Shown: in pieces, positions 6,151-56,945 of the stretch
Position numbering within the stretch: position 1 is the stretch's first letter
Layout of the letters: every line of letters starts with the position of its first letter
Source: a virus
Length of the DNA stretch: 64,000 nt
Direction: 5' to 3' (one strand)
IMG/VR virus record: IMGVR_UViG_3300024262_006558
Span: 310,001 to 374,000 of that record
Position numbers and translations under genes: made by a program
Notes under the pieces: model-generated
Told to the model about the DNA's origin: nothing
The model's database searches: none
What the model saw: the letters and a program-made list of their open reading frames with translations, nothing else

Positions 6151-6151
6151 A

Positions 6152-7034: not shown

Positions 7035-7038
7035 TATC

Positions 7039-7584: not shown

Positions 7585-7607
7585 ATATAAACTATTAAAT
7601 TTACCTT

Positions 7608-13638: not shown

Positions 13639-13662
13639 AGCAATAATTTAGTTTACATTATA

Positions 13663-20573: not shown

Positions 20574-21665
20574 TTAGTCCTCCACAAAAGGAGTGTTATA
20601 AGTTGGTCTCATTTCAGACCATAAAGCACGTTTTACCGATGTTTCAGATCCATATTTCAAAGATAAGAACAAAGATGCGTCTTTCTTACTAATTTTCCTA
20701 GCGTTTATAGCAAAATCTTTTCTATCAATCTTTCCTTCAGATATCATTTTGTCATTAAAAGCTTTAAAATCAGACTTTACCACTGCTAATCTTTTTTCAT
20801 ATTCTTTATCGAAATCATCGAGAGTCTTATGTATCCAGTCATAAAACTCATCAGGGACCTTGTCTAATATATCATCTAAAGTAAACTTCCATTCAGGATA
20901 ATATTCTGGAGCAATTTCAAACATTCTCATTCTCCAAAGGTCCAAATTTGAAATTCCAGTCATTACTCTGTGAAGTCTTACATACTCGTCAAACTTCACC
21001 TTCAATCTAAACCCGTTCTTAAAAAGAACAACAAATCCTTCTTCATTCTCCACCTCTAAAGCTTCCAACTCTTTGATATCCTTGATACCATCGTGCTTTT
21101 TCGCTATTGGCATACCAATATCCTCTAAAGGTAAGTCTTTACCTGTATCGGTATCTAAAACAGCTAATAGAACTAATTGCCTTTTACCTCTATAGTCCAC
21201 AACTATTCTATTATTTGGATAGATTATCTCAAAAATGTAAGTCTTATCTATATTTTCCAATATAGATTTAGATGCGCTTGGATATAGCTCATCCAACATC
21301 TTAGACGCTTCTACAGCCTGGTCTGATGTGAATGATCCTCTAGAGGCCGCGTAAACCTTACCATTTAATACATAAGAAACCCCATAAGATCCATCCATCT
21401 TAGTGAATACATCAAATGATTCATTAGGTATTTCTTCAGGCTTATGCTGTGACAGGTTAAAGAATTTAGGAAGACATTGAGATACAACTTCCCCGTTACC
21501 ATTAAGTATTAAGCCGCGACATGATAATGTAACCTCATTCCAATAATCCTCAAACTGAGCCTTCTTAGAATAATTGTAAATATACAGATCAGCGCTAGGG
21601 TGTTTTTGTGACATCACATAACCCTCTTTGATCATTTCTTCAAAAAGCTCTTTATTAAATACCAT
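20574..21665 (-). CDS. rnlA: T4 Rnl1-like RNA ligase
   Basis: ATP-dependent RNA ligase 1 family: CRGLILNGNGEVVSQCLPKF upstream element, motif I TKMDGSYGVSY (adenylated Lys), motif III TYIFEIIYPNN, motif IV EGFVVLFKNG and motif V RLKVKFDEY. The C-terminal helical domain of about 130 residues corresponds to the tRNA-contacting domain of T4 Rnl1. At 363 aa it is close to the T4 enzyme (374 aa). It would seal tRNA anticodon loops healed by Pnkp. A possible -7 box (TACATTTG) lies about 25 bases upstream. Confidence 0.9.
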   Translation of the reverse strand: MVFNKELFEEMIKEGYVMSQKHPSADLYIYNYSKKAQFEDYWNEVTLSCRGLILNGNGEVVSQCLPKFFNLSQHKPEEIPNESFDVFTKMDGSYGVSYVLNGKVYAASRGSFTSDQAVEASKMLDELYPSASKSILENIDKTYIFEIIYPNNRIVVDYRGKRQLVLLAVLDTDTGKDLPLEDIGMPIAKKHDGIKDIKELEALEVENEEGFVVLFKNGFRLKVKFDEYVRLHRVMTGISNLDLWRMRMFEIAPEYYPEWKFTLDDILDKVPDEFYDWIHKTLDDFDKEYEKRLAVVKSDFKAFNDKMISEGKIDRKDFAINARKISKKDASLFLSLKYGSETSVKRALWSEMRPTYNTPFVED

Positions 21666-26263: not shown

Positions 26264-27217
26264 ATGAAAGATAAAATAAAAATATACCAATTATCAAGTT
26301 CTAGGAACCCTGAAAATGTGAGATATATTGGTAAAACTTCAAATAGCATAAAGTGTAGATTGCAAAAACACTTAAGTAATTTAAAAGGAGATACAACTTA
26401 TAAAGGGAACTGGATAAGAAAAGAAATAAGTGATGGGTTTCATATAATTATAAAAAGTATTTATATCGTTTTAGAAAATGAGAACTGGCAAGATGTGGAA
26501 ATAAAACTTATTTCTGAATACAAAAAAAAAGGTTATAAATTGACAAACTTAACCCCAGGAGGAGAAGGGATGCATGGAAAAGATAATCCTTTCTATAATA
26601 AATCACACACTGAAGAATCTAAGCAAAAGTTGAGAATATCACAACCTTCAAGAAAGGAAGTGATTCAATATAATAAAACAGGTAAAATAATTAATAAATA
26701 TGATTCAATAGCACAAGCTTCAAAAGAATGCAAAATACCTATATCATCCATTTCTAATGTATGCAAAATAAAAAAGAAATATAAGACGGCTGGAGGTTAT
26801 GTTTGGAGATTTAAAGGTGATTCTTTTTCTTTAGAATATGAAAATCCAGCCAAAAATTTAAGAAAGAAGGTGGATCAATATAATAAAAAAGGTGAGTTAA
26901 TTGCAACGTATAATTCAGTTTCAAAAGCTTGTGATATAACCAGTATACCTTCTGGCAATATTTCTAGATGCTGCAATAAAAACCTTAAAACTGCTGGTGG
27001 ATATGTATGGAGATTTGAAAATGACCTTTTCGAAAAACCTTCTGTAAGGAAGGGTTCCAAAAATATCATTCAATTTGACGTAGATGGAAATAAAATTATG
27101 GAATACAATTCTATATCAGATGCTGTCAAAAAAACTGGAATTAATTATTCAGGAATATACCATTGTGCTAACGGTAAGGTTAAAACTATAAAAGGATATA
27201 TTTTTAAGTTTAAATAA
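26264..27217 (+). CDS. GIY-YIG homing endonuclease with NUMOD repeats
   Basis: N-terminal GIY-YIG domain (IYQLSSSRNPENVRYIGKT, then a catalytic Arg/His/Glu region with CRLQKHLSN and EIKLISEYKKKGYKLTN). A NUMOD3-like motif follows (GMHGKDNPFYNKSHTEESK), then three NUMOD1-type DNA-binding repeats of the form QYNKxGxxIxxYxSxxxAxK, each closed by GGYVWRF or GYIFKF. This is typical of free-standing phage homing enzymes. It is antisense to gltX, and its stop lies in a perfect 38-bp palindrome whose other strand ends the gltX ghost. Confidence 0.9.
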   Translation: MKDKIKIYQLSSSRNPENVRYIGKTSNSIKCRLQKHLSNLKGDTTYKGNWIRKEISDGFHIIIKSIYIVLENENWQDVEIKLISEYKKKGYKLTNLTPGGEGMHGKDNPFYNKSHTEESKQKLRISQPSRKEVIQYNKTGKIINKYDSIAQASKECKIPISSISNVCKIKKKYKTAGGYVWRFKGDSFSLEYENPAKNLRKKVDQYNKKGELIATYNSVSKACDITSIPSGNISRCCNKNLKTAGGYVWRFENDLFEKPSVRKGSKNIIQFDVDGNKIMEYNSISDAVKKTGINYSGIYHCANGKVKTIKGYIFKFK

Positions 27218-27372: not shown

Positions 27373-28092
27373 ATGAGAAAAAGATTTTACATAAAACCTG
27401 ACTTAAAACTTTTCTTAGACCAAGATCCGCTTAGGTTTTCCAGAAGTCAAATAACAGATTTAATTGAAAACCACTTCAATATATATAGCAGTAGATTTGG
27501 TAAAAACATTCCATTCAAACTAAATAATAATCAGAAACAAATTATTAAATCTGTTTCTGAAAACAAGATAACTGTTATTTCTAAAACTAGACAATTAGGC
27601 GTTTCTACAGTTATGCAATCAATTTTAACTTTGTTAATGGCTGATGCAGATGTTACTGTTTATTATATTTGTCATAATAAACAGTCTGCTAAATCTCGTA
27701 AACAATCGATGATATATTTACTTGAATGCTTGAAAGAGTTTGAACTTCAATACAAATCTCCTGACAACCCTTCTTCATTTGATATTATAAAAGAAACTGA
27801 AAATTCTTATACTTTATCAAACTTTAGCAAAATAAAGTTCACAACTTACGATCCTAACCTTTTTAGAGGAAGTAATGCTATGCATGTTTATTTTGATGAA
27901 TGTTTACCTAACAATGTAGCTGATGCTATGATTATGTTAGGGCCAATTACGAATGCGATTAAAGGTCATAGAATTATTATATCAAACCCTACAAGTGAAG
28001 CTGAATACATTTCTCAATCTTTGAGAAACTTAAGGCATCATTTTTTAAATATACCTAGAGGTGAATACCATTTATCTCCAGCCACTTACTAG
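27373..28092 (+). CDS. Terminase-large-subunit-like ATPase domain, no nuclease domain
   Basis: TerL-type ATPase core: FKLNNNQKQIIKSVSENK adenine-binding region, Walker A VISKTRQLGVSTVMQ near residue 75, Walker B MHVYFDEC near 176, and coupling motif IIISNPTSEAE. It ends at residue 239, before the RNase H-like nuclease domain expected in a TerL of 450-600 aa. It may be a split TerL half, a free-standing ATPase, or a remnant. The N-terminus MRKRFYIKP carries the MRKxFY tag seen on nine other proteins here, eight of them in the array at the right end. Confidence 0.72.
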   Translation: MRKRFYIKPDLKLFLDQDPLRFSRSQITDLIENHFNIYSSRFGKNIPFKLNNNQKQIIKSVSENKITVISKTRQLGVSTVMQSILTLLMADADVTVYYICHNKQSAKSRKQSMIYLLECLKEFELQYKSPDNPSSFDIIKETENSYTLSNFSKIKFTTYDPNLFRGSNAMHVYFDECLPNNVADAMIMLGPITNAIKGHRIIISNPTSEAEYISQSLRNLRHHFLNIPRGEYHLSPATY

Positions 28093-31793: not shown

Positions 31794-32064
31794 AATCTCC
31801 AAATCTATCTTTTAAAACTTTTTTCTCACCATACCGATCTGTAAACACAATCAAGTCTGCTCTATTCATTCTATTCCTAGAGTCTACAGCCACACCGCTT
31901 GTAAAGAACGACATACCTGTAGACCTATGGAAGTTAAAGTCATATAAATTAATATCATTTATATGCTTATATCTAGACCCTTTCACCAAATCATTCTCAG
32001 TTAAATATATTGGTTCCCTATATGGTCTCCACTGTTTGACTGTGTGGTAAAAACGCTTTCTCAT
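31783..32064 (-). CDS. MRKRFY-tagged small protein, 93 aa
   Basis: Starts MRKRFYHTVKQWRPY, the tag also found on the terminase-like ATPase and on the small-protein array at 61.5-63.6 kb. The rest (YLTENDLVKGSRYKHINDI, then a C-terminal VFTDRYGEKKVLKD) is not recognised and looks beta-rich. It lies far from the array, between the RlaP-type gene and the 30897 gene, and overlaps both. The scattered location argues that the tag marks a function and is not just local duplication. Confidence 0.6.
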   Translation of the reverse strand: MRKRFYHTVKQWRPYREPIYLTENDLVKGSRYKHINDINLYDFNFHRSTGMSFFTSGVAVDSRNRMNRADLIVFTDRYGEKKVLKDRFGDYGQ

Positions 32065-33434
32065 ACAGAATAAAACTCTTTACGGATATTAAGAAGTATT
32101 TCTTTACCTTTTTTAGGATCAGAATCTTTAGGCAAATCACTTATAGCATAAGCTTTATCTGATTGCTTCATAAGATCTTCCGCTCCAGACAATATAGTAT
32201 CATAGTCTTGAGCTCCTTTGCGTATCGCTAAGAGCTCTTCTCTATTGTCACGCCTAACGTTAACACCTTTGCCTTCAGCGATCTCTAGAGACATCTGTAG
32301 AAGCCTATAGCAATGCATCATGTTCTTGGTATCATAACCTTTCTTAGCTGAATCTTTATAACGCTCAGGATTTCTTTCTTCAACCCAGTCCCAATATTTT
32401 TTATGAGACTTGCAGTGTTGAGTATAAGCATCCTTTGAATAAACAAAGATTGCTACAGACTCTTCAGACTTAGGAACAGAAGAAGATCTAAGAGAATTAG
32501 AAGTCTCATGCATTATCCCTTTGTATCCAAGGCCCATGAATTCACCAGCGTCCTTAGCAATTTTCTTTCTTTCTTTTCTATCCTCTTCGGGAACCATTTC
32601 AGAAAACATGTTATGCGCAGACCAATCATAAAACAATGCGAAATTATCTTTTGCATTAGGTATACTTACTATACCGCAAAACTTTTGATCATAACCATAA
32701 TGTTCTAATACCTTCTTTAATGGAATAGTCTTATGACCTTCTATTGCATAACAGAAGTCCAATGGAGTTTTTCTAGCTTTTGGCATCTCATTAACAATCA
32801 TTTTGTTTTGCCCTCTAGCTTTTGATATTTGCTTTTTAGCATATCCACCAAATGAATCTTTACATCTTTTTGACAAGAAATCTTTAGCATTAATTTGATC
32901 TAGTAACTCAGATTTAAATAACACACAATCATCTGGCATGTTTAACAACTCCAACACTGTTGGGTTGTTGCTAGTCAACATATCCATATACTTTCTAATT
33001 TCAAAATAAGAGTAATCATCTTTCTTTCTCAAGAAAGTTTGAATTGGCTCTATACCATCATCACTTACAACAGAAACTCCTTCCTTGTTTTCTATAGGAA
33101 GTTTGTCTACAATTACATTTTTATATCCTACATCAGAACATTGCTCTTTTAGAAGGTTATGTAATGCTTCTTGCATTTCATCTCTATTTTCCTGGTTCTC
33201 GCTTTTCTCTTTGAATTCTTCGAAAACGTCTTTTACTTGTTTCTTTACAGTACTTTCAATTACGTCTGGATATTCACCTAACAGTACATCATCTAACTCA
33301 GCTACAAAGATACCTCTTCTATCCTCATCTGATGTTTCTATAGCCGTGTTATAAGCGTGTGATCCAGCTATAACTTCTAACAAAAGAAGTTTATTCTCTT
33401 TGATATACTCTATAGTGTATTTGTCTTTTGACAT
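32061..33434 (-). CDS. RlaP/YcgL-type nucleotidyltransferase
   Basis: N-terminal pol-beta fold signature: VIAGSHAYNTAIETSDEDRR, the G-S-x-A-Y-x-T...S-D-x-D-x-R-G pattern of the RlaP (RNA ligase-associated) nucleotidyltransferase family, PF10127. The long remainder has DPLDFCYAIEGHK-like and helical segments (MMHCYRLLQMSLEIAEG) also typical of that family. RlaP proteins occur next to RNA ligases in predicted RNA-repair operons, and would add or rearrange nucleotides at RNA ends. A LAGLIDADG endonuclease sits immediately upstream on the other strand. Confidence 0.75.
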   Translation of the reverse strand: MSKDKYTIEYIKENKLLLLEVIAGSHAYNTAIETSDEDRRGIFVAELDDVLLGEYPDVIESTVKKQVKDVFEEFKEKSENQENRDEMQEALHNLLKEQCSDVGYKNVIVDKLPIENKEGVSVVSDDGIEPIQTFLRKKDDYSYFEIRKYMDMLTSNNPTVLELLNMPDDCVLFKSELLDQINAKDFLSKRCKDSFGGYAKKQISKARGQNKMIVNEMPKARKTPLDFCYAIEGHKTIPLKKVLEHYGYDQKFCGIVSIPNAKDNFALFYDWSAHNMFSEMVPEEDRKERKKIAKDAGEFMGLGYKGIMHETSNSLRSSSVPKSEESVAIFVYSKDAYTQHCKSHKKYWDWVEERNPERYKDSAKKGYDTKNMMHCYRLLQMSLEIAEGKGVNVRRDNREELLAIRKGAQDYDTILSGAEDLMKQSDKAYAISDLPKDSDPKKGKEILLNIRKEFYSV

Positions 33435-33487
33435 TTTTTAATATATTTATAATTAAAACAACTCTAATTGTACACTATCAACTTACT

Positions 33488-34522
33488 ATGTGGAACCGTA
33501 TAAAATTAGACTCAGAAGAAATAGTAAAATTATATCAATCTGGATTATCTGCAGCAAAGATAGGTAAAAAATTTAACACTAGCAATACTCCAATATACAG
33601 AATTTTAAAAGAAGAGGGAGTTCAACTGAGATCTTTTAGTGAAATGAATAGAAAATATAAAGTAAATGAAACCTATTTTGATGTAATAAACTCTCATGAA
33701 AAAGCTTATATTTTAGGTCTGATTTATGCTGATGGATGTAATAAGGTTTATAAAAATACAATAGACATTTCTTTACATAAAAAGGATGTTGACATTCTAA
33801 AAAAAATAAAAAATATAATTCAGCCAGATAAACCTCTAGGTTTTAGTAAAAAAATGAATCAATATTCATTTAGAATTGAAAATAAACATATCTCTAAACA
33901 ACTAGAGCTAAAAGGAGTTATTCAAGCAAAGAGTTTAAAAATAACATTTCCCACTAAAAAAATTGTTCCTAAAAAATTTGTTCATTCCTTTGTACTTGGA
34001 TATTTTGATGGTGATGGCAGCTTATCTATTAGTAAACAAAAATACAATAGAGGATCTATAAATATTACTGGAACTGAAAATTTTGTAGATCATATAATTA
34101 GATTATCAGAAAATATAAAATGCAATTGGTATAAATATCAAAGATTCCCTGAAAGGAACAATAATAACTACACTATACAAATGTGTGGATCAGTTCAAAG
34201 TATTAGATTTCTAAAATGGATGTATAAAGATTCTCCTATTTTTATGCAAAGAAAACATGATACATTTAATAAACTTTTATTTACTCAATTAGAAAAGGAA
34301 AATAGAAAACAGGAAATTAAAAACAGAAAACAGGAAGATCAAAAAAAAAAAGAAGACAAATATATTAAATATAAAAAAGAGTATAATATGGTTATTTCTC
34401 TTTATAAGAGAGGAAAATCTATAAGAGAAATACAAGATCTAATTGGTGTCGATCGTAGGAAATCAAGTAAATATATTAAAGAACAGGGTATTAACATTAA
34501 AATGGGAGGATGGAATAATTAA
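33488..34522 (+). CDS. LAGLIDADG homing endonuclease with terminal HTH modules
   Basis: Two LAGLIDADG-type motifs, YILGLIYADGC near residue 76 and FVLGYFDGDGSLS near 173, with flanking beta sheets. N-terminal HTH (EIVKLYQSGLSAAKIGKKF) and C-terminal HTH (VISLYKRGKSIREIQDLIG) may help target recognition. Start taken at ATG 33488 (MWNRIKLD), since a longer frame would run into the start of the antisense RlaP-type gene. It lies in the gap upstream of that gene and does not break any recognised ORF. Its stop overlaps the stop of the small membrane gene. Confidence 0.88.
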   Translation: MWNRIKLDSEEIVKLYQSGLSAAKIGKKFNTSNTPIYRILKEEGVQLRSFSEMNRKYKVNETYFDVINSHEKAYILGLIYADGCNKVYKNTIDISLHKKDVDILKKIKNIIQPDKPLGFSKKMNQYSFRIENKHISKQLELKGVIQAKSLKITFPTKKIVPKKFVHSFVLGYFDGDGSLSISKQKYNRGSINITGTENFVDHIIRLSENIKCNWYKYQRFPERNNNNYTIQMCGSVQSIRFLKWMYKDSPIFMQRKHDTFNKLLFTQLEKENRKQEIKNRKQEDQKKKEDKYIKYKKEYNMVISLYKRGKSIREIQDLIGVDRRKSSKYIKEQGINIKMGGWNN

Positions 34523-37323: not shown

Positions 37324-37360
37324 ATCACAAATTTATAGATAAAAAACAAGACAAACAATA

Positions 37361-37387
37361 AAAACCCTATAATTTATAGGGTTTTTA
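37361..37387 (-). terminator. Terminator after phosphatase C-half gene
   Basis: AAAACCCTATAA / TTATAGGGTTTT stem followed leftward by T-rich sequence, just after the phosphatase stop at 37390. Confidence 0.75.
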
Positions 37388-37389
37388 TT

Positions 37390-38118
37390 TTATGATAAGA
37401 AGAAATCTAATAACCCTTCCGAGGTTTTCTTTTGTTTAGACAAAACGCAATCAATAGACATCTTTTCTCCAGGCTTTATGGTAGCATATGTTAATTTACC
37501 ACCTTTATAACATCCAGTGTCTATATTAATCTTATTAAATACGGTCATATATCCGCAGGCAATATGTCCAAAAAAATGGGATGGATGAATAAGTGAAGCC
37601 TCTTGTTTCAAAAAAGAGAAAAATATTTCGATCTCTTTAATGTAAGCACTTTCTCTATCCGACATCTTTTTAGTTTTCTTGTTCACCTTCCTATAAAAGA
37701 ATTCAACAATTTTATCAACAATAGATTCTGCTCCAGGCATTTTAGGATACATTACATGTTGCTGATACTTCAAACTTTTACCGTGAAGCTTGCCGATGTA
37801 TTTATTTCTACATGGAGCATGAGTAACTACAAACTCTTTATGTATATAAAATGATTTAGCATTTTCAACAAGCTCAAAGAACTTTTCTCTTAACTCCTCA
37901 TCATCTTGTAATAAAAGAACTGTGTCAAAGTAGTTCTCAATCAATCCAGGCTCAACAGATTTAGCTGGTATAATACCTTTTAAATATTTGTAAACCCAGT
38001 TCTCATGATTTCCTACAGTAAGAAAGAACCATTCTTGGTTATTATAAATAAATTCTATAACACCTCTAGAGTCAGGCCCTTTATCTATCCAATCACCTAA
38101 TAATAATATTTTTTTCAT
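37390..38118 (-). CDS. C-terminal part of split PPP-family phosphatase
   Basis: Starts MKKILLLGDWIDKGPDSRG, which is motif II of PPP metallophosphatases, followed by motif III TVGNHENW near residue 36, a His-bearing VVTHAPCRNKYIG, and the last metal and substrate motifs FFGHIACGYM and IDTGCYKGGKLTYA. Motif I (GDxHG) is absent; it is found at the end of the leftward gene at 39215-39745, on the far side of a LAGLIDADG endonuclease. The two pieces join as ...NNKI / LLLGDWIDKG. It is probably made separately from its own promoter and may assemble with the other half. Confidence 0.85.
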   Translation of the reverse strand: MKKILLLGDWIDKGPDSRGVIEFIYNNQEWFFLTVGNHENWVYKYLKGIIPAKSVEPGLIENYFDTVLLLQDDEELREKFFELVENAKSFYIHKEFVVTHAPCRNKYIGKLHGKSLKYQQHVMYPKMPGAESIVDKIVEFFYRKVNKKTKKMSDRESAYIKEIEIFFSFLKQEASLIHPSHFFGHIACGYMTVFNKINIDTGCYKGGKLTYATIKPGEKMSIDCVLSKQKKTSEGLLDFFLS

Positions 38119-38150
38119 ATTTATAATAGTGTTTAAAAACGCTAGTTTAT

Positions 38151-38180
38151 ATTAAAACGTAGTATTATATAAAATGTTGC
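38151..38180 (-). promoter_or_regulatory. Phage promoter family member before the phosphatase C-half
   Basis: Leftward GCAACATTTT, then TACGTTTTAAT with 22 positions from G to C, about 35 bases before the C-half ATG. It lies between the endonuclease start and the severed gene, so it restarts transcription of the downstream half. Confidence 0.6.
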
Positions 38181-38186
38181 AAAAAA

Positions 38187-39218
38187 ATGGGAAAAAGGTG
38201 GAATAAAAAAGAAGAAGAATTTTTAAAAGAAAACTATCCTACTCAAGGACTAGAGTATTGTCATAACAAATTAGATAGAAATAAAAAGTCTATAATATGT
38301 AAAACGAATAAATTAAACCTAAAATTAGAAGATAAGGTTAAATCTAAAATTCTAAAAAAGTTTCGCATTAAAGATGTGAAAGAGTATAAAATAAACCCAA
38401 ATCAATTCTTTAATATCAAATCTAAAAAAGTTGCTTATTTTTTAGGTTTTTTATGGGCTGATGGACATATAACCAAAACTGGGTATAATATTAACATAGA
38501 AATTAAAAAAGAAGACATGAATTATGTTAAGCCTATATTTGATTCGTTAGGTATATGGGGATACTATGAAAGAAATCGAAACAATTGGGCTACTCAATCT
38601 AAAATAAGTACAAACAATTATCATATACACAAATTTTTAAAAGAAAATGATTACCATATTAAATCTTATGAATCTCCAGATAAAATTTTATCTAAAATAC
38701 CTGAATATTTAAAACATTATTTTTTTAGAGGATGGAGTGATGGAGATGGTTGTTTCATAAGTAATCATAATTATCACAATTTTGTTTTAACTGGTGATAA
38801 GTCTCAAAAATGGAATGCAACAAAATTTTTAGTGCAAGAGTTGGGTATTAAAAATTATAGGATAATAATAAATGAGAATAAAAAAAGTTCCTCTTCATAT
38901 CTGAAAATATCAAATAAAAAAGATATAGCACTTTTAGGAGATTACCTTTATCAAGGATTCAGTAAAGATAAAATAGGATTACCTAGAAAATATCATACAT
39001 ACGAAACAATAAAGGAAAAATCTTCCAAAACTAGATACCTCACACCAGAACAAAGAAATAAAGCAATAGAAAATAACTTAGGAGCAAAAAATCCAGCTTA
39101 CAAAAATGTTAATGTTGGTGTGATTACGGAAATGAGAGAAAAAGGTCAAACTCTCCAAAATATAGCTGATCATTTTAATGTTAGCATTTGGACTATAAGA
39201 ACAAGGTTAAAACCTTAG
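38187..39218 (+). CDS. LAGLIDADG homing endonuclease splitting a phosphatase gene
   Basis: Two motifs, YFLGFLWADGHI near residue 84 and FFRGWSDGDGCF near 180, mark a single-chain LAGLIDADG enzyme. The N-terminus (RWNKKEEEFLKENYPTQG) looks like a small SANT/Myb-type DNA-binding helix set, and the C-terminus is an HTH (LQNIADHFNVSIWTIRTRL). It sits antisense between two pieces of one metallophosphatase, and its stop codon lies in a 21-base palindrome shared with the stop of the phosphatase N-half. Confidence 0.9.
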   Translation: MGKRWNKKEEEFLKENYPTQGLEYCHNKLDRNKKSIICKTNKLNLKLEDKVKSKILKKFRIKDVKEYKINPNQFFNIKSKKVAYFLGFLWADGHITKTGYNINIEIKKEDMNYVKPIFDSLGIWGYYERNRNNWATQSKISTNNYHIHKFLKENDYHIKSYESPDKILSKIPEYLKHYFFRGWSDGDGCFISNHNYHNFVLTGDKSQKWNATKFLVQELGIKNYRIIINENKKSSSSYLKISNKKDIALLGDYLYQGFSKDKIGLPRKYHTYETIKEKSSKTRYLTPEQRNKAIENNLGAKNPAYKNVNVGVITEMREKGQTLQNIADHFNVSIWTIRTRLKP

Positions 39219-39235
39219 GAGTTATTAACTCCTAA
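39215..39235. repeat. 21-base palindrome carrying two opposed stop codons
   Basis: Arms TTAGGAGTTA / TAACTCCTAA with one central base. It contains the TAG of the endonuclease (top strand) and the TAA of the phosphatase N-half (bottom strand). It is equivalent in position to the palindrome at 27206-27243. Confidence 0.75.
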
Positions 39236-39745
39236 AATTTTATTGTTTACCATATCGATCTCAAACCCATTTTTAACTAATGCTTCTTTAAACTCTTCTA
39301 AGCATCCATGAATATCCCCGACAACAATCCACTCTTTTGTTTCATCTAATTTATGAGTCAACAAAGTTTCATGTGATGTAGAAACTATTTCATTATCGAT
39401 ATCCTTTATGAAAATCTCAATCTCTCCTTTTTTCTTAGAGTTCTTTCCAGAAAGTAAAGCCTCATCAAATATCAAAGAAACTAAGTTGTAGTTATTTCTA
39501 TCCGCAATACTTTTGATACCTTTTTTTGTTAAACCATCTTCAGCAATTACAAAATAAGTATTCTTAGGATATTCGGTTGATTTCTCAATCTCATCCAAAT
39601 CACCTAAAATAACAACAGAAGAATCATCTAATGATTTTAATGCTGGATGCAGACGATCTTTTACGAAAGTATCTCTTTCTACATCTGTAGCTCCAACTAA
39701 CATTATGATGCTGTGTACTGGAATATCGATTTTTTGTTTCTTCAT
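39215..39745 (-). CDS. N-terminal part of split kinase-phosphatase (Pnkp-like)
   Basis: Residues 1-135 look like a P-loop kinase fold with a worn-out Walker A (IIMLVGATDVERDTF where GxxGxGKS/T is expected). Residues 138-172 hold PPP motif I, EWIVVGDIHGCLEEFKEAL, then NGFEIDMVNNKILG, after which the frame runs into GVNNS and stop inside a palindrome. The missing motifs are in the gene at 37390-38118. A kinase domain followed by a PPP phosphatase is the order of bacterial Pnkp, the RNA end-healing enzyme. The kinase part is probably inactive. Confidence 0.8.
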   Translation of the reverse strand: MKKQKIDIPVHSIIMLVGATDVERDTFVKDRLHPALKSLDDSSVVILGDLDEIEKSTEYPKNTYFVIAEDGLTKKGIKSIADRNNYNLVSLIFDEALLSGKNSKKKGEIEIFIKDIDNEIVSTSHETLLTHKLDETKEWIVVGDIHGCLEEFKEALVKNGFEIDMVNNKILGVNNS

Positions 39746-40257: not shown

Positions 40258-41208
40258 TTATTTTTTGAAAAATGTGTCAGCATGAACAAATCCCATCCCA
40301 AGTCTTGTAGCTGTCGTTTTATCACTGGTCTGGTCTCCTACGAAAATACTGTTTTCAATGTCTATCTCATCACGCATCACATATTTCATAACCATACCCA
40401 TTTGTGGCTTTCTACAATAACAAGAAGGTGGAACATTATGTGGACAATAAGATATTTCGATGTCAATACCAAGTTGTCTATTAGTTTCTTCAAAACATTC
40501 TATAATGTCTTCTTCAGGTATATTATTTCTATCGATCCCACTTTGGTTGGAAATACCATAAACTTTATATCCCTTGGTAATGAAGTCTTTGATTATTTCT
40601 GTTCTATTTTCAAGAACAACAACTTCATCTGTTTTGATTGGGAACTTATAAGGTGAACCATCAGGGACATCTCTTACTGTACCATCATAGTCCAGAAATA
40701 AAGCTTTTTGAGTAAATCTTTGATTGTATCTTCTGACAAACTTTCTTTTTTCGATGTTAGAAAACCCTTCTTTCAATTCGGGTTTTTCAAATTGTTTTTT
40801 CATTTTAAAAAGAACAACAATTGGAAACATGTTAGGATCTTTTGATGCTTCTTTATGGTCAGCAATGTCTTTTGCCACCATAAATAATTCACCATATCTA
40901 TCCCACATCCGAGTTAATGCATTGATTTGACAATCTTCTGTTGTGGTAGTCTGCCAAACACATTCGATCTCTACATTGTTTTTGATAGCTAACTCAATAA
41001 ATGGTTCTCTAGAAACCTTAGTAGTAAAAGTAGCATCTAAAATAACAGAATTATCATCGTCTATGTGTTTTTGTAGTTCTGGTAATAGGTCAGCTATAAG
41101 ACCGCCTGAAACATCCCTACTTAATATATCTAATGATTCGTATTTTGCTTCTTTACAAATACTAGATTTCCCACTTGCGGGGAAACCGCATAACATAGTT
41201 ATTTTCAT
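40258..41208 (-). CDS. Bifunctional P-loop kinase / HAD phosphatase (PNKP-like)
   Basis: N-terminal kinase with Walker A MLCGFPASGKSS (residues 5-16) and DILSRDVSGG; NSVILDATFT is the second acidic motif. The C-terminal HAD phosphatase starts at FLDYDGTVRD (171-180) and has YGISNQSGI and the metal-binding PPSCYCRKPQMGM and VGDQTSDKTTA. The C-domain is of the histidinol-phosphatase/eukaryotic PNKP class (with a Cys cluster), distinct from the T4-type HAD at 13707. A second, independent nucleic-acid end-healing enzyme is the likely role; DNA or RNA is not resolved. Confidence 0.82.
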   Translation of the reverse strand: MKITMLCGFPASGKSSICKEAKYESLDILSRDVSGGLIADLLPELQKHIDDDNSVILDATFTTKVSREPFIELAIKNNVEIECVWQTTTTEDCQINALTRMWDRYGELFMVAKDIADHKEASKDPNMFPIVVLFKMKKQFEKPELKEGFSNIEKRKFVRRYNQRFTQKALFLDYDGTVRDVPDGSPYKFPIKTDEVVVLENRTEIIKDFITKGYKVYGISNQSGIDRNNIPEEDIIECFEETNRQLGIDIEISYCPHNVPPSCYCRKPQMGMVMKYVMRDEIDIENSIFVGDQTSDKTTATRLGMGFVHADTFFKK

Positions 41209-41256: not shown

Positions 41257-42237
41257 TTACATCTCTTCTATTTTATCTAAAATAGTTTCAGCAATTGACC
41301 TAACCTCATAAGGTAGTTTGTTATCAAATACACTGTACGCCATTGGGTGCGTATCAGTCACGGTAACATGATCAATACCTCCACTATCAATAATTCTAGC
41401 TAAAGAATTCTGAGGGAAAATACCATGAGTGGCAATTGCATATACATGTTTAGCTCCAGCTTCTTTGTATGCTTTACCCGCATTTATAAGACTTCCCCCA
41501 GTACGAATCATGTCATCATATATAACAACATTCTTACCCTCAACGTCTCCGTACACCGCCTTAACTTCAGTCTCTGTACCAGATATCCTTTTCTTCATTA
41601 TATAAGCGGCATCAACACCCATCTCGCCAGCAAGCTTTTCAATTTGCTTAGCCCTACCTGAATCAGTTGACGCGAACACAAAATCATTACCACCTATTTT
41701 CTGAGCCGCATCCTTTATGATATGATCACATCTAATTTGTTTAACAACAGTGCTTCCTTCGAAATAATGAGTTAATCCATCAACATGAAGATCAAACAAG
41801 TAAATAGTGTTTCTGTTTGATTGAGGTATACAAGAAAGTATTCTGGCCCTTGTTTTTGCTTTAACTACTTCTCCATCTTTTACTGCCCTCTCCATTGTAG
41901 AGTAACTGAAATAAGGAATGAATAAAGTAAGTGTATGAGCTCCATTCTTTACGGCAGCACATGCAAGATCATATATTTCCATAAGATCCATATCATGAGG
42001 AGTCCCTCCTATAATAATAACATCTTTGTCATCTACATTAGTTGCTAATCTATGATAAGTTTCCATATCAGGAAATTCTTTCACTTCTACAGTTCCTTCA
42101 ACTAGTGAATCAAACAATTTACTTGCTTCAGGATTCTCGTCAATAATTGGAGCATATACCTCATCTCTAGTTTGAAGAACTAACTCTAAAAGAGAAGCAT
42201 AGTTTTTTGTGCTGAATATAATTTTTTGTCTTTCCAT
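41257..42237 (-). CDS. prs: Ribose-phosphate pyrophosphokinase (PRPP synthetase) family
   Basis: Type I PRPP synthetase family protein, 326 aa. The metal/ATP loop is in FDLHVDGLTHYFEG and the PRPP-binding loop is VVIYDDMIRTGGSL, with the flexible loop KKRISGTETEVKAVYG and the FVFASTDSGRAKQIEKLA segment. Standard members make PRPP from ribose-5-phosphate and ATP. Some phage members instead pyrophosphorylate ADP-ribose as part of an NAD+ rebuilding pathway, and this copy may be such an enzyme. Sequence alone does not decide. Other NAD-linked genes lie in this window, but no obvious partner transferase was seen. Confidence 0.82.
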   Translation of the reverse strand: MERQKIIFSTKNYASLLELVLQTRDEVYAPIIDENPEASKLFDSLVEGTVEVKEFPDMETYHRLATNVDDKDVIIIGGTPHDMDLMEIYDLACAAVKNGAHTLTLFIPYFSYSTMERAVKDGEVVKAKTRARILSCIPQSNRNTIYLFDLHVDGLTHYFEGSTVVKQIRCDHIIKDAAQKIGGNDFVFASTDSGRAKQIEKLAGEMGVDAAYIMKKRISGTETEVKAVYGDVEGKNVVIYDDMIRTGGSLINAGKAYKEAGAKHVYAIATHGIFPQNSLARIIDSGGIDHVTVTDTHPMAYSVFDNKLPYEVRSIAETILDKIEEM

Positions 42238-45090: not shown

Positions 45091-45993
45091 TTAATTTAAT
45101 AAATTTTTCTCAAAAGGACCAATAAATTTTTTGTCATCTGAGTAGTCAAGAACAGCAAACCTAGCTTCTTTAAAAAAGCCTTTGAACTCATTCTCTAATT
45201 TGTCCTTGAAAATTTTAGAAATAACATCAGGGTCATTGCCGAAAACTCCGCATCCCCATGCTCCTAAAATTAATTTATCATAACCTTTATCAGCCGCAAA
45301 AGTTAATACAATTTCAATTCTTTCATCCATTGTTGAGTTTATTAACCCAACATTATCTGGCTCATTTACTGTAACCGCTCCAGCGTTAACTGCGGGAGAA
45401 GTAAGAACCGATATTTGATATGGTTCATCTAAAAGATTTCCATTATCATCCTTAAAAAAGGTAACTCCTGGAGAATGTATCAAGCCATGACTATACAAAG
45501 ATGAACCAAAATAAGCATTGTTATCATAAAAGTTATTAGAATTTTTAGTGATCAATGTGTGATACAAATCAGAAGATCTAGCTAAACATTCTTCTTGAGC
45601 TTGAGCTCCATTTAGAAAACCTCCGCCTGGATGTTTTGCTGAAGCAAAATTAAGCATTAAAGTCTTGCCATCGGTTTCAAGTAATTCTTGAGCGGCTTCC
45701 ATAGTAGTTTGATTCACTACGGTAATATTCAAAGTATGGTCAGGGTTTTCTTCAGAGTGAGAAAAACATTCATAAACTTCCTTCACCAACTTTCTATCAC
45801 TATTAAGTTCAATGGTAATGCCATGATCATAATAAGTGGCCAAAGTCAACGCTTGTTTAGTGTTGCCAGACAAACTAACAACTTTGCCCTTTGAATTAGT
45901 ATAAGATCCCTCTTGAACCTTTTTCATGGTGTCATTAGCAATCTCAATTCTATTATGAGATGGGTATTTTGAATTTGTCGTTTTTTGGTTCAT
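45091..45993 (-). CDS. Microbial PARG-type macrodomain hydrolase
   Basis: TIGR02452-type microbial poly(ADP-ribose) glycohydrolase/macrodomain: the signature SAKHPGGGFLNGAQAQEECL matches the PARG GGG...QEE catalytic loop, with the catalytic Glu pair at QEE. Upstream VNQTTMEAAQELLETDGK and downstream LTSPAVNAGAVT and GAWGCGVFGNDP complete the macrodomain. It would remove ADP-ribose from proteins or nucleic acids. In a phage this could undo toxin-type ADP-ribosylation used in host defence. A strong phage-type promoter precedes it. Confidence 0.85.
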   Translation of the reverse strand: MNQKTTNSKYPSHNRIEIANDTMKKVQEGSYTNSKGKVVSLSGNTKQALTLATYYDHGITIELNSDRKLVKEVYECFSHSEENPDHTLNITVVNQTTMEAAQELLETDGKTLMLNFASAKHPGGGFLNGAQAQEECLARSSDLYHTLITKNSNNFYDNNAYFGSSLYSHGLIHSPGVTFFKDDNGNLLDEPYQISVLTSPAVNAGAVTVNEPDNVGLINSTMDERIEIVLTFAADKGYDKLILGAWGCGVFGNDPDVISKIFKDKLENEFKGFFKEARFAVLDYSDDKKFIGPFEKNLLN

Positions 45994-46028: not shown

Positions 46029-46033
46029 CTATT
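46013..46033 (-). terminator. Hairpin at the end of the thg1 gene, overlapping a promoter
   Basis: AATAGGCAA / TTGCCTATT inverted repeat with a three-base loop, followed leftward by ATTTTCG. It covers the Thg1 stop and the GCAACA box of the next promoter, so it may be a terminator, an operator, or both. Confidence 0.55.
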
Positions 46034-46814
46034 CTTCTAATTGAAATAATTTATTTTCATACACAGGAACTATGCTTGATAAGAATGTCCAATCCTTAGA
46101 GAATATTGGAGGCTCCAACGCTTCCCATCTAGACCTTTTAACTCCAGGCTCTTTTTCATATTCTTTTCTAGCGATCACGGTCCCTCTTTTAAAACGAACC
46201 TCATAATCATTCCAATTAATCCCTTTCTCAAGCATTAACTTATCTTGAATCTGACCCCCATTCTTGCCTTGCAACTCCTTGTGAGAGAACTGAGCTTGAC
46301 CCGCCATTGAAACTGAGTTTCTTGTACAGTCTTGCTGTCTCCAAAGAAAGTAGTTTAATACATCATTTGGATTTGGTATTAGAAAAGCTCTAGAATCAAA
46401 GTTAGCCCAAATAAAAGAGTCTAACTTGAAACCTTCCTCGGAAATAGCTCTCTTAAGTCTAAGGTTGTTAAAGATAGTTGTTGCTAATGAAGCAGCTATA
46501 GAATTGATCTTATCCACTCTACCATCATATAATTGTTGACTCTTAATGTTCTCAAAATCAGTGAACAATAAAGATATCTCATCAGATTGAGTATATGCCA
46601 TTCTACAACATTGCAGTTCAGAACATAACTGTCTAGCCGTCTCAATCATATCGTCAGATAAACCAGAATCAAATGGCTTTTCAACCTTTTTAGTGTACTT
46701 TGAAAATTTTTTCCCGTCTAATCTAACTAAAACATAGCTGCGAGGAGACAGTTTAATAGTGGAGGCTGATTCGTATTGTTTTATACGTTCACCTAATGTT
46801 ATTTCTTTACTCAT
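46029..46814 (-). CDS. thg1: tRNA(His) guanylyltransferase / Thg1-like 3'-5' polymerase
   Basis: Thg1 family: RLDGKKFSKYTKKVEKPFD (first metal-site motif), then AYTQSDEISLLFTDF (second), and SMAGQAQFSHKELQGKNG-type downstream core. Length 261 aa is standard. Thg1-like proteins add nucleotides in the 3'-5' direction; in bacteria they repair tRNA 5' ends. It fits the RNA-repair group in this window (RNA ligases, Pnkp, RlaP, Tpt1). It overlaps the radical SAM gene by eight bases. Confidence 0.9.
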   Translation of the reverse strand: MSKEITLGERIKQYESASTIKLSPRSYVLVRLDGKKFSKYTKKVEKPFDSGLSDDMIETARQLCSELQCCRMAYTQSDEISLLFTDFENIKSQQLYDGRVDKINSIAASLATTIFNNLRLKRAISEEGFKLDSFIWANFDSRAFLIPNPNDVLNYFLWRQQDCTRNSVSMAGQAQFSHKELQGKNGGQIQDKLMLEKGINWNDYEVRFKRGTVIARKEYEKEPGVKRSRWEALEPPIFSKDWTFLSSIVPVYENKLFQLEE

Positions 46815-48499: not shown

Positions 48500-48842
48500 C
48501 GAATAATTCATCTTTACCGTATTCAACAATATCTCTAATCAAGTAATCTATGATTACTTGATTAAAATCTTTTTCAGCTTTCTTCTCACCTTCTTCACAG
48601 AATACGCTGTACACACCTTTGTGTTTTTTACCATTCATAATAGCATTGTATTCAAAGGTGTGATTATTTGCAGCATCTACTGAAATTAACACATACTGAA
48701 CTATAATATTACCTTTAACCCATTTAACTAAGTCAGCATCAATCGATTCTTGATCTAAACAATCATCTACATCCAATACGCTTTCAATGTAAGAATTTTT
48801 GTTACCTTTAAAATTAGCATAGAATAAAAGTTTACTTCCCAT
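48480..48842 (-). CDS. Hypothetical protein, 120 aa
   Basis: Small alpha/beta protein (LFYANFKGNKNSYIESVLD, then IIVQYVLISVDAANNHTFEY) with an acidic C-terminal tail (ELFDEEQEN). Not recognised. It lies between the nicotinamidase gene and the NSSSSHS protein with overlapping ends. Confidence 0.5.
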   Translation of the reverse strand: MGSKLLFYANFKGNKNSYIESVLDVDDCLDQESIDADLVKWVKGNIIVQYVLISVDAANNHTFEYNAIMNGKKHKGVYSVFCEEGEKKAEKDFNQVIIDYLIRDIVEYGKDELFDEEQEN

Positions 48843-49762
48843 TATAGTTTTATATTTTCAAGTTTAACAAACTCAACTCCCATATCTCTAGCTTCCTGAA
48901 ATATGTCATCAGCAATATTTTCAAACCCAGGAACTGAACTCATACAATCTTCTACAATTACCACCCTATCTAATAGCCTTTTGAAATCATCGTCTTCTTT
49001 TGAAAAGTCAATTATTTGTTTAATTGAAGTGGCTACACAATGCGACTTTGCTTCACCGCATAAATATATTTTATCCATTCCATTATCATAGCCAAACTGA
49101 GCCGTTCCAACAAGATAATTTACTAGATTCTGAACCATCATAGAATGCCTTGTTGTTTCTGATACTTGTGGCACAGGAACTTCAGCTTCAAAAATTCCAT
49201 AATGCTCAGAAAACGCGAACTGACCTTTATATAGTATTTTGTGATTATTAGCTGTAGCTATACTCCAGTCTTTAATGACTTTCATTAACGGATCATATAT
49301 AGCGTGCCCCCAACTACCCGACACGCAGTGTATAGGCCAAATTGTATGCTCTTTACCTGCTTCCTCAAGATCGCTCAAATACTCCACAGAACCTCTTTGA
49401 TATGTCATGTGAGTATCGAAGTCGTAACTTGGATCTTTCAAGTCTACTTTTTTAATGCCTCCAAACTCATCTTGAGTAATAGCTGCAGTATATTTTCTAC
49501 CTTTAGCCTCTTTGTGTTTGATTGTGGTAAATGGCTCAACTGGATTACCCTCTGGATCCATCCAGAAAGTGGGGTGCGATATATCAATCACATCATGCGT
49601 ATCTAATGATACAGCTATCCCGCTAATCTTATCTTGATTAGCTGCTATGAACTTGGATAATCTATCCATGTCATCATCCGCCCCTGGAACATATAAAGAT
49701 CCTTTTGGGTCAACGAAGTCATTTTGTGGATCTATACAAAGTATTGAAATTCTCTTTTTCAT
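48842..49762 (-). CDS. pncA: Nicotinamidase/isochorismatase-family hydrolase
   Basis: Nicotinamidase-type catalytic triad: Asp in LCIDPQNDFVDPKGSLYVPG, Lys in YKGQFAFSEHYGIFE, and Cys in CGEAKSHCVATS. The metal-site DxH is in SLDTHDVIDISHPTFW and the WPIHCVSGSWGHAI element is typical of PncA. It would turn nicotinamide into nicotinate for the Preiss-Handler route to NAD+. At about 306 aa it is longer than PncA (about 210 aa), with inserts in the first half. A second close paralogue lies at 54409-55239. Confidence 0.85.
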   Translation of the reverse strand: MKKRISILCIDPQNDFVDPKGSLYVPGADDDMDRLSKFIAANQDKISGIAVSLDTHDVIDISHPTFWMDPEGNPVEPFTTIKHKEAKGRKYTAAITQDEFGGIKKVDLKDPSYDFDTHMTYQRGSVEYLSDLEEAGKEHTIWPIHCVSGSWGHAIYDPLMKVIKDWSIATANNHKILYKGQFAFSEHYGIFEAEVPVPQVSETTRHSMMVQNLVNYLVGTAQFGYDNGMDKIYLCGEAKSHCVATSIKQIIDFSKEDDDFKRLLDRVVIVEDCMSSVPGFENIADDIFQEARDMGVEFVKLENIKL

Positions 49763-54408: not shown

Positions 54409-55239
54409 TTAAACTTGCGTTTGAGAAGTTGACTTAACAGTCCTGCCTTCTAATGCATCATTCGTGTTAGAAAAACGAATGTTATTTTGTCTAGCTCGAT
54501 CATATATTGGATCAGCAAGAGTTTCAAACCCTGGAACAACACTCATAGCATCTTCCAAAATGATAAACTTGCTTGCTAAGTCTGGAGCTAAATCCATCGC
54601 TTGCTTAAGCGTATTAGCTACACAGTGAGACTCGGCCTCTCCAGCAAAATAAACGTTTTGGAATTTCTCCAAACTTCTAATAAGCTTTTGATTTAATTGA
54701 GTTGACTGTTCCCCTTGAACTTCAACGTTAGCCCTAAAAGCTCCGAAGTGTTCAACTAAAGGATATTCCCCTTTTTGTACATATTGTACGAATTTACCTG
54801 GAGAAGCATTTACCCATTGCGCTAAAGCGTCAGCTAAAGGTCCGTAGATTGCATGACCTTCAGTACCTCTGATACAGTGAGTAGGCCATATACAGTGAGG
54901 ATATTCCCCTTGATCTTCAAGATCAGCGATATACTTAACAACTTGAGGACCAAAAGCTTTTGGAGTCCAAGTTCCATTCTCGATATCTTCAGAAGTGATA
55001 ATTGTGAAAGGATTTGGACTGTTTCCATCTTTATCTTCCCAAAGAGTTGGGTGAGCAATGTCGTTAATGTGATGCGTGTCAAGCGTTACCGCTATAGCAT
55101 CAATAGTCTCAATGTTGTTGAGAATCCATTCAGCAAGACGTTCCATGTCTTTATCCGCTCCAGGTACATATAAGGACCCTTTTGGATCACAAAAATCTAC
55201 TTGAGGATCTATACAAAGTAATGCATTTTTAGTTGCCAT
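54409..55239 (-). CDS. pncA: Nicotinamidase-family hydrolase, second copy
   Basis: Close paralogue of the gene at 48842: LCIDPQVDFCDPKGSLYVPG (Asp), TLDTHHINDIAHPTLW (DxH metal site), WPTHCIRGTEGHAIYG, VQKGEYPLVEHFGAF (Lys) and AGEAESHCVANTLKQ (Cys). All triad positions are retained. It is 276 aa. Two such enzymes in one phage suggest either dose or different substrates. It is immediately upstream of the vWA gene. Confidence 0.83.
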   Translation of the reverse strand: MATKNALLCIDPQVDFCDPKGSLYVPGADKDMERLAEWILNNIETIDAIAVTLDTHHINDIAHPTLWEDKDGNSPNPFTIITSEDIENGTWTPKAFGPQVVKYIADLEDQGEYPHCIWPTHCIRGTEGHAIYGPLADALAQWVNASPGKFVQYVQKGEYPLVEHFGAFRANVEVQGEQSTQLNQKLIRSLEKFQNVYFAGEAESHCVANTLKQAMDLAPDLASKFIILEDAMSVVPGFETLADPIYDRARQNNIRFSNTNDALEGRTVKSTSQTQV

Positions 55240-55250: not shown

Positions 55251-55844
55251 TTAGTTTATGTAAAATTTCATTTCTTGTTCAGTGTCACAATTGTAACTTT
55301 TCAAATGCCCTTCTTCACCTTGCATGCCGATGGTGCAAAGAACATACTGAACACCTTCTCTGCCTTCATCTAATTGGGATAATTTGAATTTTTTTAAAAC
55401 ATCTTCACGATCGGAAATGTATGAATTACGCTGTATTTGTTGAGTAACAATAACTTCATACCCATCTTCTTCCTGAGAAATATTATAAAGGTCTTCATCT
55501 ATCTTACCTATAATTTCAAGATAGCTAAGATCATTTTCTGACCCATCTCCTAGAGTTAAATTACCTATACCATCAATAACAATAGAGTCATATCCTGGAT
55601 AATTTTTTAACTTCCTAATAATATCATTAACGCTAGATCCTAAATCCAACTCTACAATTTTTATGTTATTACCACCACTTAATAAATTATTACTATTAAG
55701 TAACATATCCATCCTATTGAGCACATCTTTCATTCTCCACTCAGACACAAAGAAAACAAAATTAGTTTCTGGTCTAGATATCATATGAGCAAGCAATGAA
55801 ATGTTATTACCACTCCCAACAGTTCCGCAAAATTTCTTATACAT
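55251..55844 (-). CDS. Possible RecA/DnaB-fold ATPase-like protein with worn Walker A
   Basis: Has the flow of a RecA-like domain: KFCGTVGSGNNISLLAHM where Walker A GxxGxGKT is expected, then DSIVIDGIGNL as a Walker B-like segment, and EVIVTQQIQRNSYISD as a sensor-like motif. The missing Lys/Thr in the first loop makes ATP hydrolysis doubtful. A degraded recombinase/helicase-like protein or a structural variant is possible. It overlaps the Tpt1 gene. Confidence 0.45.
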   Translation of the reverse strand: MYKKFCGTVGSGNNISLLAHMISRPETNFVFFVSEWRMKDVLNRMDMLLNSNNLLSGGNNIKIVELDLGSSVNDIIRKLKNYPGYDSIVIDGIGNLTLGDGSENDLSYLEIIGKIDEDLYNISQEEDGYEVIVTQQIQRNSYISDREDVLKKFKLSQLDEGREGVQYVLCTIGMQGEEGHLKSYNCDTEQEMKFYIN

Positions 55845-56367
55845 TTTTTATATATTTTAAAGGTACAAACTCCGTTAAATAAACTCCATTCTCAGAACGA
55901 TAAAACACATATCCATCGTTATGCATTCTCTTAGCTTCAATAGTTAATATTGAATGCTCTCCTTTACGAGATCCTACATTATCTGCAGTCTCTACATCTT
56001 CAGAAAGATGTACAGCATGTCGTTTCATTTTACTAATACCGTCTTCCATAATTAAAGGTACAGTTTTAGTTGCGGTCCCATGATATAGATCAAATGGAGG
56101 AATAACTGCCTCAAGTTGTAAATCTATATTTTCAACCGAGTGCCCTTGATTCGCTCTTATCTTAGATTTATCTTCACTGAAAGCGAATCTCTTTTTATTA
56201 TTTGTTTCAACGATTTCTTCTAATATCTCCATAGTTAACCCTTCAATCTTATCCAGTAGAAAAGACACATCGGCCCAACCATTTTTATCCAACTCTAAAC
56301 CAATAGCCTCTGGCTTATGTCTAAGTACTTTTGAAAGTAGTCTAGATGTATTGTTTTTGTTTCCCAT
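55837..56367 (-). CDS. kptA: RNA 2'-phosphotransferase (KptA/Tpt1)
   Basis: Tpt1 motifs in order: LLSKVLRHKPEAIGLELDKN (Arg-His), FAFSEDKSKIRANQGHSV (the RxNQGHS motif), DLYHGTATKT, RHAVHLSEDVETA and the final FYRSENGVYLTEFVP. Length 176 aa is normal. The enzyme moves an internal 2'-phosphate from RNA to NAD+, giving ADP-ribose 1'',2''-cyclic phosphate and nicotinamide, so it links RNA repair with NAD+ metabolism. It suits the other repair genes here. Confidence 0.92.
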   Translation of the reverse strand: MGNKNNTSRLLSKVLRHKPEAIGLELDKNGWADVSFLLDKIEGLTMEILEEIVETNNKKRFAFSEDKSKIRANQGHSVENIDLQLEAVIPPFDLYHGTATKTVPLIMEDGISKMKRHAVHLSEDVETADNVGSRKGEHSILTIEAKRMHNDGYVFYRSENGVYLTEFVPLKYIKNV

Positions 56368-56368
56368 T

Positions 56369-56668
56369 TTAGAATAAAATAAGTGCAGTTACCCAAGTAA
56401 ACAATAGAGAAATTAAACATATAAATCCTCCATTTAAAATTTGCTTAAGTAAAATTGTGGTGACATCTTCACCTTCATCTTTGGGAGTCTTGTAAAATAA
56501 TAAACCTTTTACAGCAAATAATATATAAGCTTGTGTAGCTGTTATTTTGAAAATGCCAAATGCTGGCACCATCAAAGAATTCCATTGATATGCAAATACA
56601 TTTGCGAATGCAATAGCCATTAATGCTCCTACTATAATAGCTACTGTTATTTGTCCTATTGCTTTCAT
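56369..56668 (-). CDS. Small membrane protein, 99 aa
   Basis: Three hydrophobic segments (ITVAIIVGALMAIAFANVFA; AYILFAVKGLLFY; GFICLISLLFTWVTALILF) with an acidic loop between the second and third. No family recognised. Three bases separate it from the next upstream gene. Confidence 0.5.
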   Translation of the reverse strand: MKAIGQITVAIIVGALMAIAFANVFAYQWNSLMVPAFGIFKITATQAYILFAVKGLLFYKTPKDEGEDVTTILLKQILNGGFICLISLLFTWVTALILF

Positions 56669-56671
56669 TTT

Positions 56672-56887
56672 TTAATCTTTATAAATTACACATGTTAAAA
56701 TTACCGATAAATACAACGTAATACCAAACCAATATAAAGGATCAAATATACCATCTATTTCTGATAAAACCCATGAAACTACATATATGACGCAGGAACT
56801 ATAGAAAATAATTTTCCTTATTTTCCATCTACCCTGCTTGGTCTCCATTAATTTGTCTATTGATATTTTACTAATCTTTTCTATCAT
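56672..56887 (-). CDS. Small membrane protein, 71 aa
   Basis: A basic N-terminal helix (KISIDKLMETKQGRWKIRK) is followed by two hydrophobic stretches (IIFYSSCVIYVVSWVLS; LYWFGITLYLSVILTCVIY). Unknown. It is preceded by the phage promoter motif, so it starts a transcription unit with the Tpt1 region. Confidence 0.5.
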   Translation of the reverse strand: MIEKISKISIDKLMETKQGRWKIRKIIFYSSCVIYVVSWVLSEIDGIFDPLYWFGITLYLSVILTCVIYKD

Positions 56888-56910
56888 TCTATGGAACCTA
56901 CATTACCTTA

Positions 56911-56943
56911 CTATATCTAACGTTGTTTTCCATTAAATGTTGC
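56911..56943 (-). promoter_or_regulatory. Phage promoter family member
   Basis: Leftward GCAACATTTA, then AACGTTAGATATAG with 22 positions from G to C, about 25 bases before ATG 56887. The downstream box departs from TTATAT. Confidence 0.5.
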
Positions 56944-56945
56944 AT

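Follow-up and report, generated by a model that had tools for sequence, protein, structure and literature searches.

A Pnkp-like phosphatase gene very probably split by an antisense LAGLIDADG endonuclease gene in a huge phage

A Pnkp-like gene of a huge phage has, in our assessment, very probably been split in two by insertion: a pair of minus-strand ORFs (here N-half and C-half), which read together as a degenerate kinase followed by a PPP-type phosphatase, flank a plus-strand gene for a LAGLIDADG homing endonuclease (Table 1). The stretch of DNA analysed, here called the window, comprises 64,000 bases and represents positions 310001-374000 of a 388,594-base environmental viral record (IMG/VR), which may itself be a fragment. 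The first-pass annotation had proposed this arrangement, with PPP motif I carried by N-half and C-half starting at motif II; the coordinates, the strands, the colinear profile matches and the motifs read in the ORFs agree with it. With moderate confidence we favour the reading that a homing endonuclease invaded the phosphatase gene and that its two fragments continue to be produced and come together again. That homing endonucleases can break genes in two is already known, and what is new here is the Pnkp-like host gene, the antisense layout and the terminator- and promoter-like ends of the insert. In a non-exhaustive search of open-licence papers we came across no phage enzyme described as split in this manner by an endonuclease gene on the opposite strand.

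Table 1. Positions in the window of the split locus, its flanking signals and the RNA-repair genes discussed in the text.
Feature	Position	Strand	Size	Remarks
Terminator-like hairpin	37357-37389	-		directly 3' of the C-half stop; -16.6 kcal/mol, z -5.2
C-half	37390-38118	-	242 aa	remaining PPP phosphatase, motif II to NIDTGC..GGKLT; residues aligned to the metal site D9, N37, H38, H100, H185; D200 in conserved IDTG
Motif II, GDWIDKG	38077-38097			in C-half
Divergent intergenic stretch	38119-38186		68 bases	between the start codons of the endonuclease gene and C-half
LAGLIDADG homing endonuclease gene	38187-39218	+	343 aa	antisense, between the halves
Hairpin TTAGGAGTTA(T)TAACTCCTAA	39208-39242			3' end common to N-half and the endonuclease gene
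N-half	39215-39745	-	176 aa	degenerate P-loop kinase-like region and first PPP beta-alpha unit with motif I; residues aligned to the metal site D144, H146
Motif I, GDIHGC	39302-39319			in N-half
Intact T4-type kinase and HAD 3'-phosphatase	40258-41208	-		PNK3P 6.4e-10, AAA_33 4.2e-8; GFPASGKSS P-loop, DYDGT
Second intact T4-type Pnkp (kinase and HAD_PNKP)	13707-14636	-		HAD_PNKP 6.9e-47, AAA_33 2.9e-14
RNA ligases	9346-10059, 20574-21665
RNA-end/ADP-ribose set	9346-10059, 13707-14636, 20574-21665, 32061-33434, 40258-41208, 46029-46814, 55837-56367, 45091-45993, 59534-60010

The two ORFs and their unsplit relatives

The two halves match adjacent, non-overlapping stretches of the same profiles. 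In PHROG 246 (417 positions), a kinase-like plus PPP family filed as NinI-like, N-half matches positions 101-202 (5.1e-7) and C-half positions 207-398 (1.4e-22), the match spanning the kinase-like and PPP parts across the two, and in TIGR04075, the NCBIfam model of bacterial Pnkp, the matched stretches are 143-211 and 223-335, respectively. The solved Pnkp phosphatase 4j6o, which we take to be the phosphatase domain of Clostridium thermocellum Pnkp, aligns with N-half over residues 4-43 and with C-half over residues 58-173 and 206-237, the NIDTGC..GGKLT block included. C-half also matches Metallophos (PF00149), and the alignments to 4j6o and TIGR04075 identify a PPP phosphatase domain with Pnkp-type motifs, spread over the two halves. 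When the bacterial Pnkp model was run against the whole 388,594-base record, homology was confined to the two pieces that flank the insert. PPP motifs I (GDIHG) and II (GDWIDKG) lie on opposite sides of the break: N-half contains VVGDIHGC and ends in ...NNKILGVNNS, and C-half opens with MKKILLLGDWIDKGP, which holds motif II, and continues with GNHE, VTHAP, FGH and NIDTGCYKGGKLT. Neither ORF contains stops or frameshifts, and their in-frame codon usage is phage-like (0.40 and 0.31 bits per codon).

Unsplit orthologues, as sought for the first-pass reading, do occur in relatives. When viral contigs were searched with a profile, a single 790-aa ORF (positions 5311-7683) was recovered in a contig of 242,588 bases (L038); its product is 31% identical to C-half, and Pfam assigns to it a kinase (AAA_33), a PPP phosphatase (Metallophos) and a Pnkp ligase domain, in this order. 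This is the full domain order of bacterial Pnkp; the kinase-PPP part of it had been predicted for the intact ancestor, and the window protein has that part without the ligase. Unsplit homologues are also present in the Microcystis phages Ma-LMM01 and MaMV (384-406 aa), and Staphylococcus phage Twort and related phages have homologues of 754-766 aa. The kinase-PPP layout fits PHROG 246, because two further huge phages (L018 and L061) have kinase-like ORFs that are matched by positions 2-136 of this profile. Directly upstream of the three-domain Pnkp of L038 lies a gene for a Hen1-like methyltransferase (4050-7683 for the two together), a phage-borne Pnkp-Hen1 RNA repair pair similar to the Pnkp and Hen1 homologues on record for phage XacN1 (PMC5852040). 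A Hen1 partner (TIGR04074) had no match in the 388,594-base record studied here, which is possibly a fragment.

The split protein shares the kinase-PPP order, the PPP motifs and NIDTGC..GGKLT with bacterial Pnkp (Clostridium thermocellum, TIGR04075), the L038 protein and Twort gp008. It differs from bacterial Pnkp in its short kinase without GK[ST], in lacking the C-terminal ligase (adenylyltransferase), as C-half ends after the PPP domain, in its division into two pieces and in its TIGR04075 scores (27.7 and 38.4 bits), which are far under the curated cut-off of 750 bits. The kinase part is also shorter than the corresponding domain of L038. At the P-loop position GATDVERD aligns to GISHSGKT of an unsplit homologue, with GxxxxGK[ST] and its lysine absent; this bears out the worn P-loop noted earlier, and the active P-loop kinase of bacterial Pnkp is not found in this protein. 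A kinase-like N-terminus without GK[ST], followed by a PPP domain and no ligase, is likewise seen in the PHROG 246 proteins of the Microcystis phages (Ma-LMM01 gp25 and MaMV), although these are unsplit and 23-24% identical over C-half.

Closer relatives were searched for in several collections. When N-half, C-half and the adjacent kinase-phosphatase were each used as a single-sequence query against viral contigs, no relatives were returned; a DNA-level search of a phage collection gave no match, and a scan of genome contigs yielded two weak partial PPP matches in Lachnospiraceae bins. Among 19 IMG/VR contigs gathered through their NAD-dependent ligase (~42% identity), neither half was matched by single-sequence search and PHROG 246 gave only other, unsplit PPPs and kinases. 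A close relative with an empty site was not found in the viral-contig, genome-contig and phage-collection searches.

The insert and its two ends

The endonuclease gene matches LAGLIDADG_3 (PF14528) at 6.7e-8, in two stretches above the cut-off, and the endonuclease family PHROG 4645 at 3.3e-25. Its product contains two LAGLIDADG motifs with acidic residues (LGFLWADG and FFRGWSDGDG) and a C-terminal helix-turn-helix, and judged from these motifs it is putatively an enzyme that homes into the uninterrupted target. At 26%, the G+C content of the gene is lower than that of the halves (31%) and of the window (33%). With the endonuclease as query, weak matches only (23% identity) were obtained, and no copy in an unsplit or other context. 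The window contains a second gene for a LAGLIDADG endonuclease with helix-turn-helix (33428-34522, plus strand), which is intergenic with no obvious gene split and whose product is 29% identical to the split-locus endonuclease over a 135-residue stretch.

At the junction little or nothing of the phosphatase appears to be missing. When the halves are joined, motif I and motif II are 31 residues apart, vs 30-36 in intact relatives. The joined read-through, which was constructed for searches only, scores above the summed halves against LMM01 (62.0 vs 56.1 bits), EF24C (25.6 vs 19.5 bits) and LSA2308 (23.4 vs 11.0 bits), and below them against L038 (90.7 vs 92.4 bits). The residues KIL are indeed repeated on both sides of the break, as the first-pass annotation had pointed out, but so short a repeat, three residues in DNA rich in AT, speaks only weakly for a duplication.

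The hairpin at the 3' ends of N-half and the endonuclease gene has a 16-pair stem (-17.5 kcal/mol, z -4.8 on the minus strand) and is terminator-like on both strands, although its T tracts are weak; the last codons and the stop of N-half are encoded within it. By its sequence it is a possible two-way terminator.

At the opposite end, the divergent intergenic stretch contains a promoter-like sequence. TTTG-N17-21-TANNTTTG, which we take to be the Bacteroidota-type promoter consensus, occurs as seven exact copies in the window, four of which lie at most 95 bases upstream of a gene start, vs 0.4 expected from the share of positions. The record's NAD-dependent DNA ligase is ~40-45% identical to ligases of huge uncultured phages, and Bacteroides and Flavobacterium phages are among its next-best matches. 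Because of these ligase matches and the seven exact promoter copies, four of them near gene starts, the host of the phage is likely a member of the Bacteroidota. In the intergenic stretch TTTG (38180-38183) and TACGTTTT (38154-38161), separated by 18 bases, point to C-half, lie 35 bases before its ATG and are one mismatch from this consensus. Furthermore, a 48-base block of the stretch aligns with the leader at 13649-13699, which contains an exact promoter match, at a score of 45, vs 35 for the best of 3000 shuffles. The two leaders (13649-13699, and 38143-38190 on the minus strand) have TTTTTTGCAACATTTTAT...TACGTTT...AAACTA in common and precede a HATPase gene and C-half, respectively. Since the one-mismatch match is accompanied by a block in common with an exact-match leader, it is plausible that C-half has its own promoter. 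Of the earlier claim that C-half has its own ATG and a promoter-family match, the ATG stands as it was; the match is present in imperfect form. A TATAAAT by the C-half ATG was also considered as a promoter and is less convincing, because transcription would begin inside the ORF.

Predicted fate of the split phosphatase

In the reading that we favour, a free-standing LAGLIDADG gene would have inserted antisense between PPP motifs I and II of a Pnkp-like gene, turning one gene for a degenerate kinase plus PPP-type metallophosphatase into two. The homing site would have been the uninterrupted coding sequence between the two motifs, destroyed by the insertion. N-half would terminate at the hairpin by the 3' end of the endonuclease gene, and C-half would start at a new ATG behind the promoter-like sequence beside that gene. 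The endonuclease would be the cause of the split, both polypeptides would presumably be made, and the Asp and His of motif I in N-half would complete the two-metal site of C-half, by analogy with the pieces of Aeh1 NrdA.

Such an outcome has precedents. Homing endonucleases commonly occupy stretches that encode active sites and can leave functional two-piece enzymes (PMC2988022): nrdA of Aeromonas phage Aeh1, the parallel correctly drawn in the first-pass annotation, is split by mobE and its two-piece enzyme is active, and gene 60 of T4 is split by mobA (PMC2988022). Splits of DNA polymerase genes are on record as well (PMC2988022; PMC12363816). As in the Aeh1 and T4 cases, a free-standing endonuclease gene lies in a critical stretch and one enzyme gene has become two ORFs; as for nrdA, there are unsplit colinear homologues and no self-splicing intron or intein was detected. 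The earlier cases, however, involve an HNH endonuclease and a ribonucleotide reductase or topoisomerase, whereas here the endonuclease is of the LAGLIDADG type and the target is a Pnkp-like phosphatase of predicted function; the insert is, moreover, antisense and has a hairpin and a promoter-like site at its two ends. In the Jug phages, which are huge gut phages, introns, inteins and stand-alone endonuclease genes break up several genes (PMC12363816). The present phage resembles them as a huge phage with a gene broken by an endonuclease gene, but many of their splits involve group I introns, which were not detected here, and the gene concerned is a different one. Fractured genes in which an endonuclease gene intervenes between split-intein halves (Dassa 2009, via PMC10448857) share, as far as they are described there, the position of the endonuclease gene between gene halves, whereas neither half here has intein splicing domains.

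Whether two chains could form one enzyme depends on the metal site. Every residue expected from the PPP metal-site motifs is found in the alignment, and these residues are divided between the two chains (Table 1), in an assignment that we presume by motif from PPP enzymes and Pnkp. Motif II, commonly DRG, has a lysine in place of the arginine, as it does in the L038 and Microcystis phage proteins. Since the metal-site residues are present and the codon usage is phage-like, an enzyme assembled from both chains is possible, compare Aeh1 NrdA. AlphaFold models of the halves (mean pLDDT 37 and 49) were too poor to test assembly. The activity would likely be the removal of a 3'-phosphate or 2',3'-cyclic phosphate from RNA, and the pseudokinase part is likely a structural or RNA-binding module. 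That the function of the split phosphatase has been retained seems to us slightly more probable than not. Should both halves be produced and come together, the result would be a metallophosphatase whose metal ligands are supplied by chains encoded in separate genes, and it would offer a simple two-chain system in which the tolerance of gene fission can be tested; RNA end-repair enzymes would join the few phage enzymes known to be split by endonucleases, and the endonuclease would persist in an active-site-coding region without a self-splicing partner, despite separating the transcription of the halves.

Since the phage encodes two intact T4-type kinase-phosphatases close by, the chief competing account is that the insertion killed the gene and that the two ORFs are recent functionless remnants; it is less probable than continued function and yet has appreciable weight. 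The T4-type enzymes (40258-41208 and 13707-14636) are a possible functional backup, and with the RNA ligases in the window they make it probable that loss of the split phosphatase would be tolerated. The earlier loss of the P-loop from the kinase part and the one mismatch in the promoter match of C-half point the same way. Against decay, neither ORF is broken, both keep a phage-like codon usage and no catalytic motif has been lost, and C-half has a well-placed ATG, a promoter-like site and a downstream hairpin, although a recent loss would present the same picture. Were the two ORFs indeed without function, the redundancy of RNA repair in huge phages would be what lets endonucleases land in such genes.

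A more specific form of the two-chain reading is, in our view, somewhat doubtful: the insert would be an antisense cassette with, or beside, its own hairpin terminator and a phage promoter, which has made two separately transcribed genes out of one; their products would restore the two-metal phosphatase site in trans, each chain contributing metal ligands and the dead kinase serving in docking.

That the halves are joined by splicing is very improbable; in this account the insert, with its antisense endonuclease gene, would be a group I or II intron or what is left of a split intein. Group I introns often interrupt genes in huge gut phages (PMC12363816), and the same phage has an intein-like insert elsewhere, but no Rfam intron family was matched at E of 1 or less between 36000 and 41500 on either strand, nor at gathering score anywhere in the window, and the endonuclease gene fills the insert, with ~70 bases left. 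N-half ends 8 residues past its conserved part and C-half starts 7 residues before GDW, so that intein halves cannot fit; a spliced intron or intein between the halves, which would have spoken against the first-pass reading, was not found. Still less credible is that the gene is intact and that faulty assembly put an endonuclease contig into it: the record is environmental and a second independent copy was not found, but a random misjoin would not supply N-half with its own stop within a hairpin and C-half with its own start and promoter-like leader, and the codon usage and low G+C of the endonuclease gene match those of the phage's other endonuclease gene.

RNA-repair neighbours and other endonuclease-associated genes

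Enzymes acting on RNA ends or ADP-ribose are dense in the window, which encodes two RNA ligases, two T4-type Pnkps, RlaP, Thg1, KptA/Tpt1, a microbial PARG and NADAR (Table 1). The window also contains, at 41257-42237, 48842-49762 and 54409-55239, a PRPP-synthetase homologue and two isochorismatase/nicotinamidase-like genes; a NAPRTase-family gene (NAD salvage) was not found in the record.

Two further genes of this phage are associated with endonuclease sequences. A 239-aa stand-alone N-terminal ATPase domain of the terminase large subunit (PF03237, 4.9e-7) is encoded at 27373-28092 (plus strand) and adjoins a NUMOD-containing endonuclease gene (26264-27217, plus strand); a full-length terminase of 583 aa is also encoded, at record positions 56254-57843. 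A SNF2-like helicase of the record (L004, record positions ~172348-172539) contains an in-frame, LAGLIDADG-containing insert directly past Walker A (GVGK / TCSAF). As read from its sequence, this insert has an end of the VTHN type, lacks an N-terminal Cys or Ser and is intein-like, perhaps of class 3.
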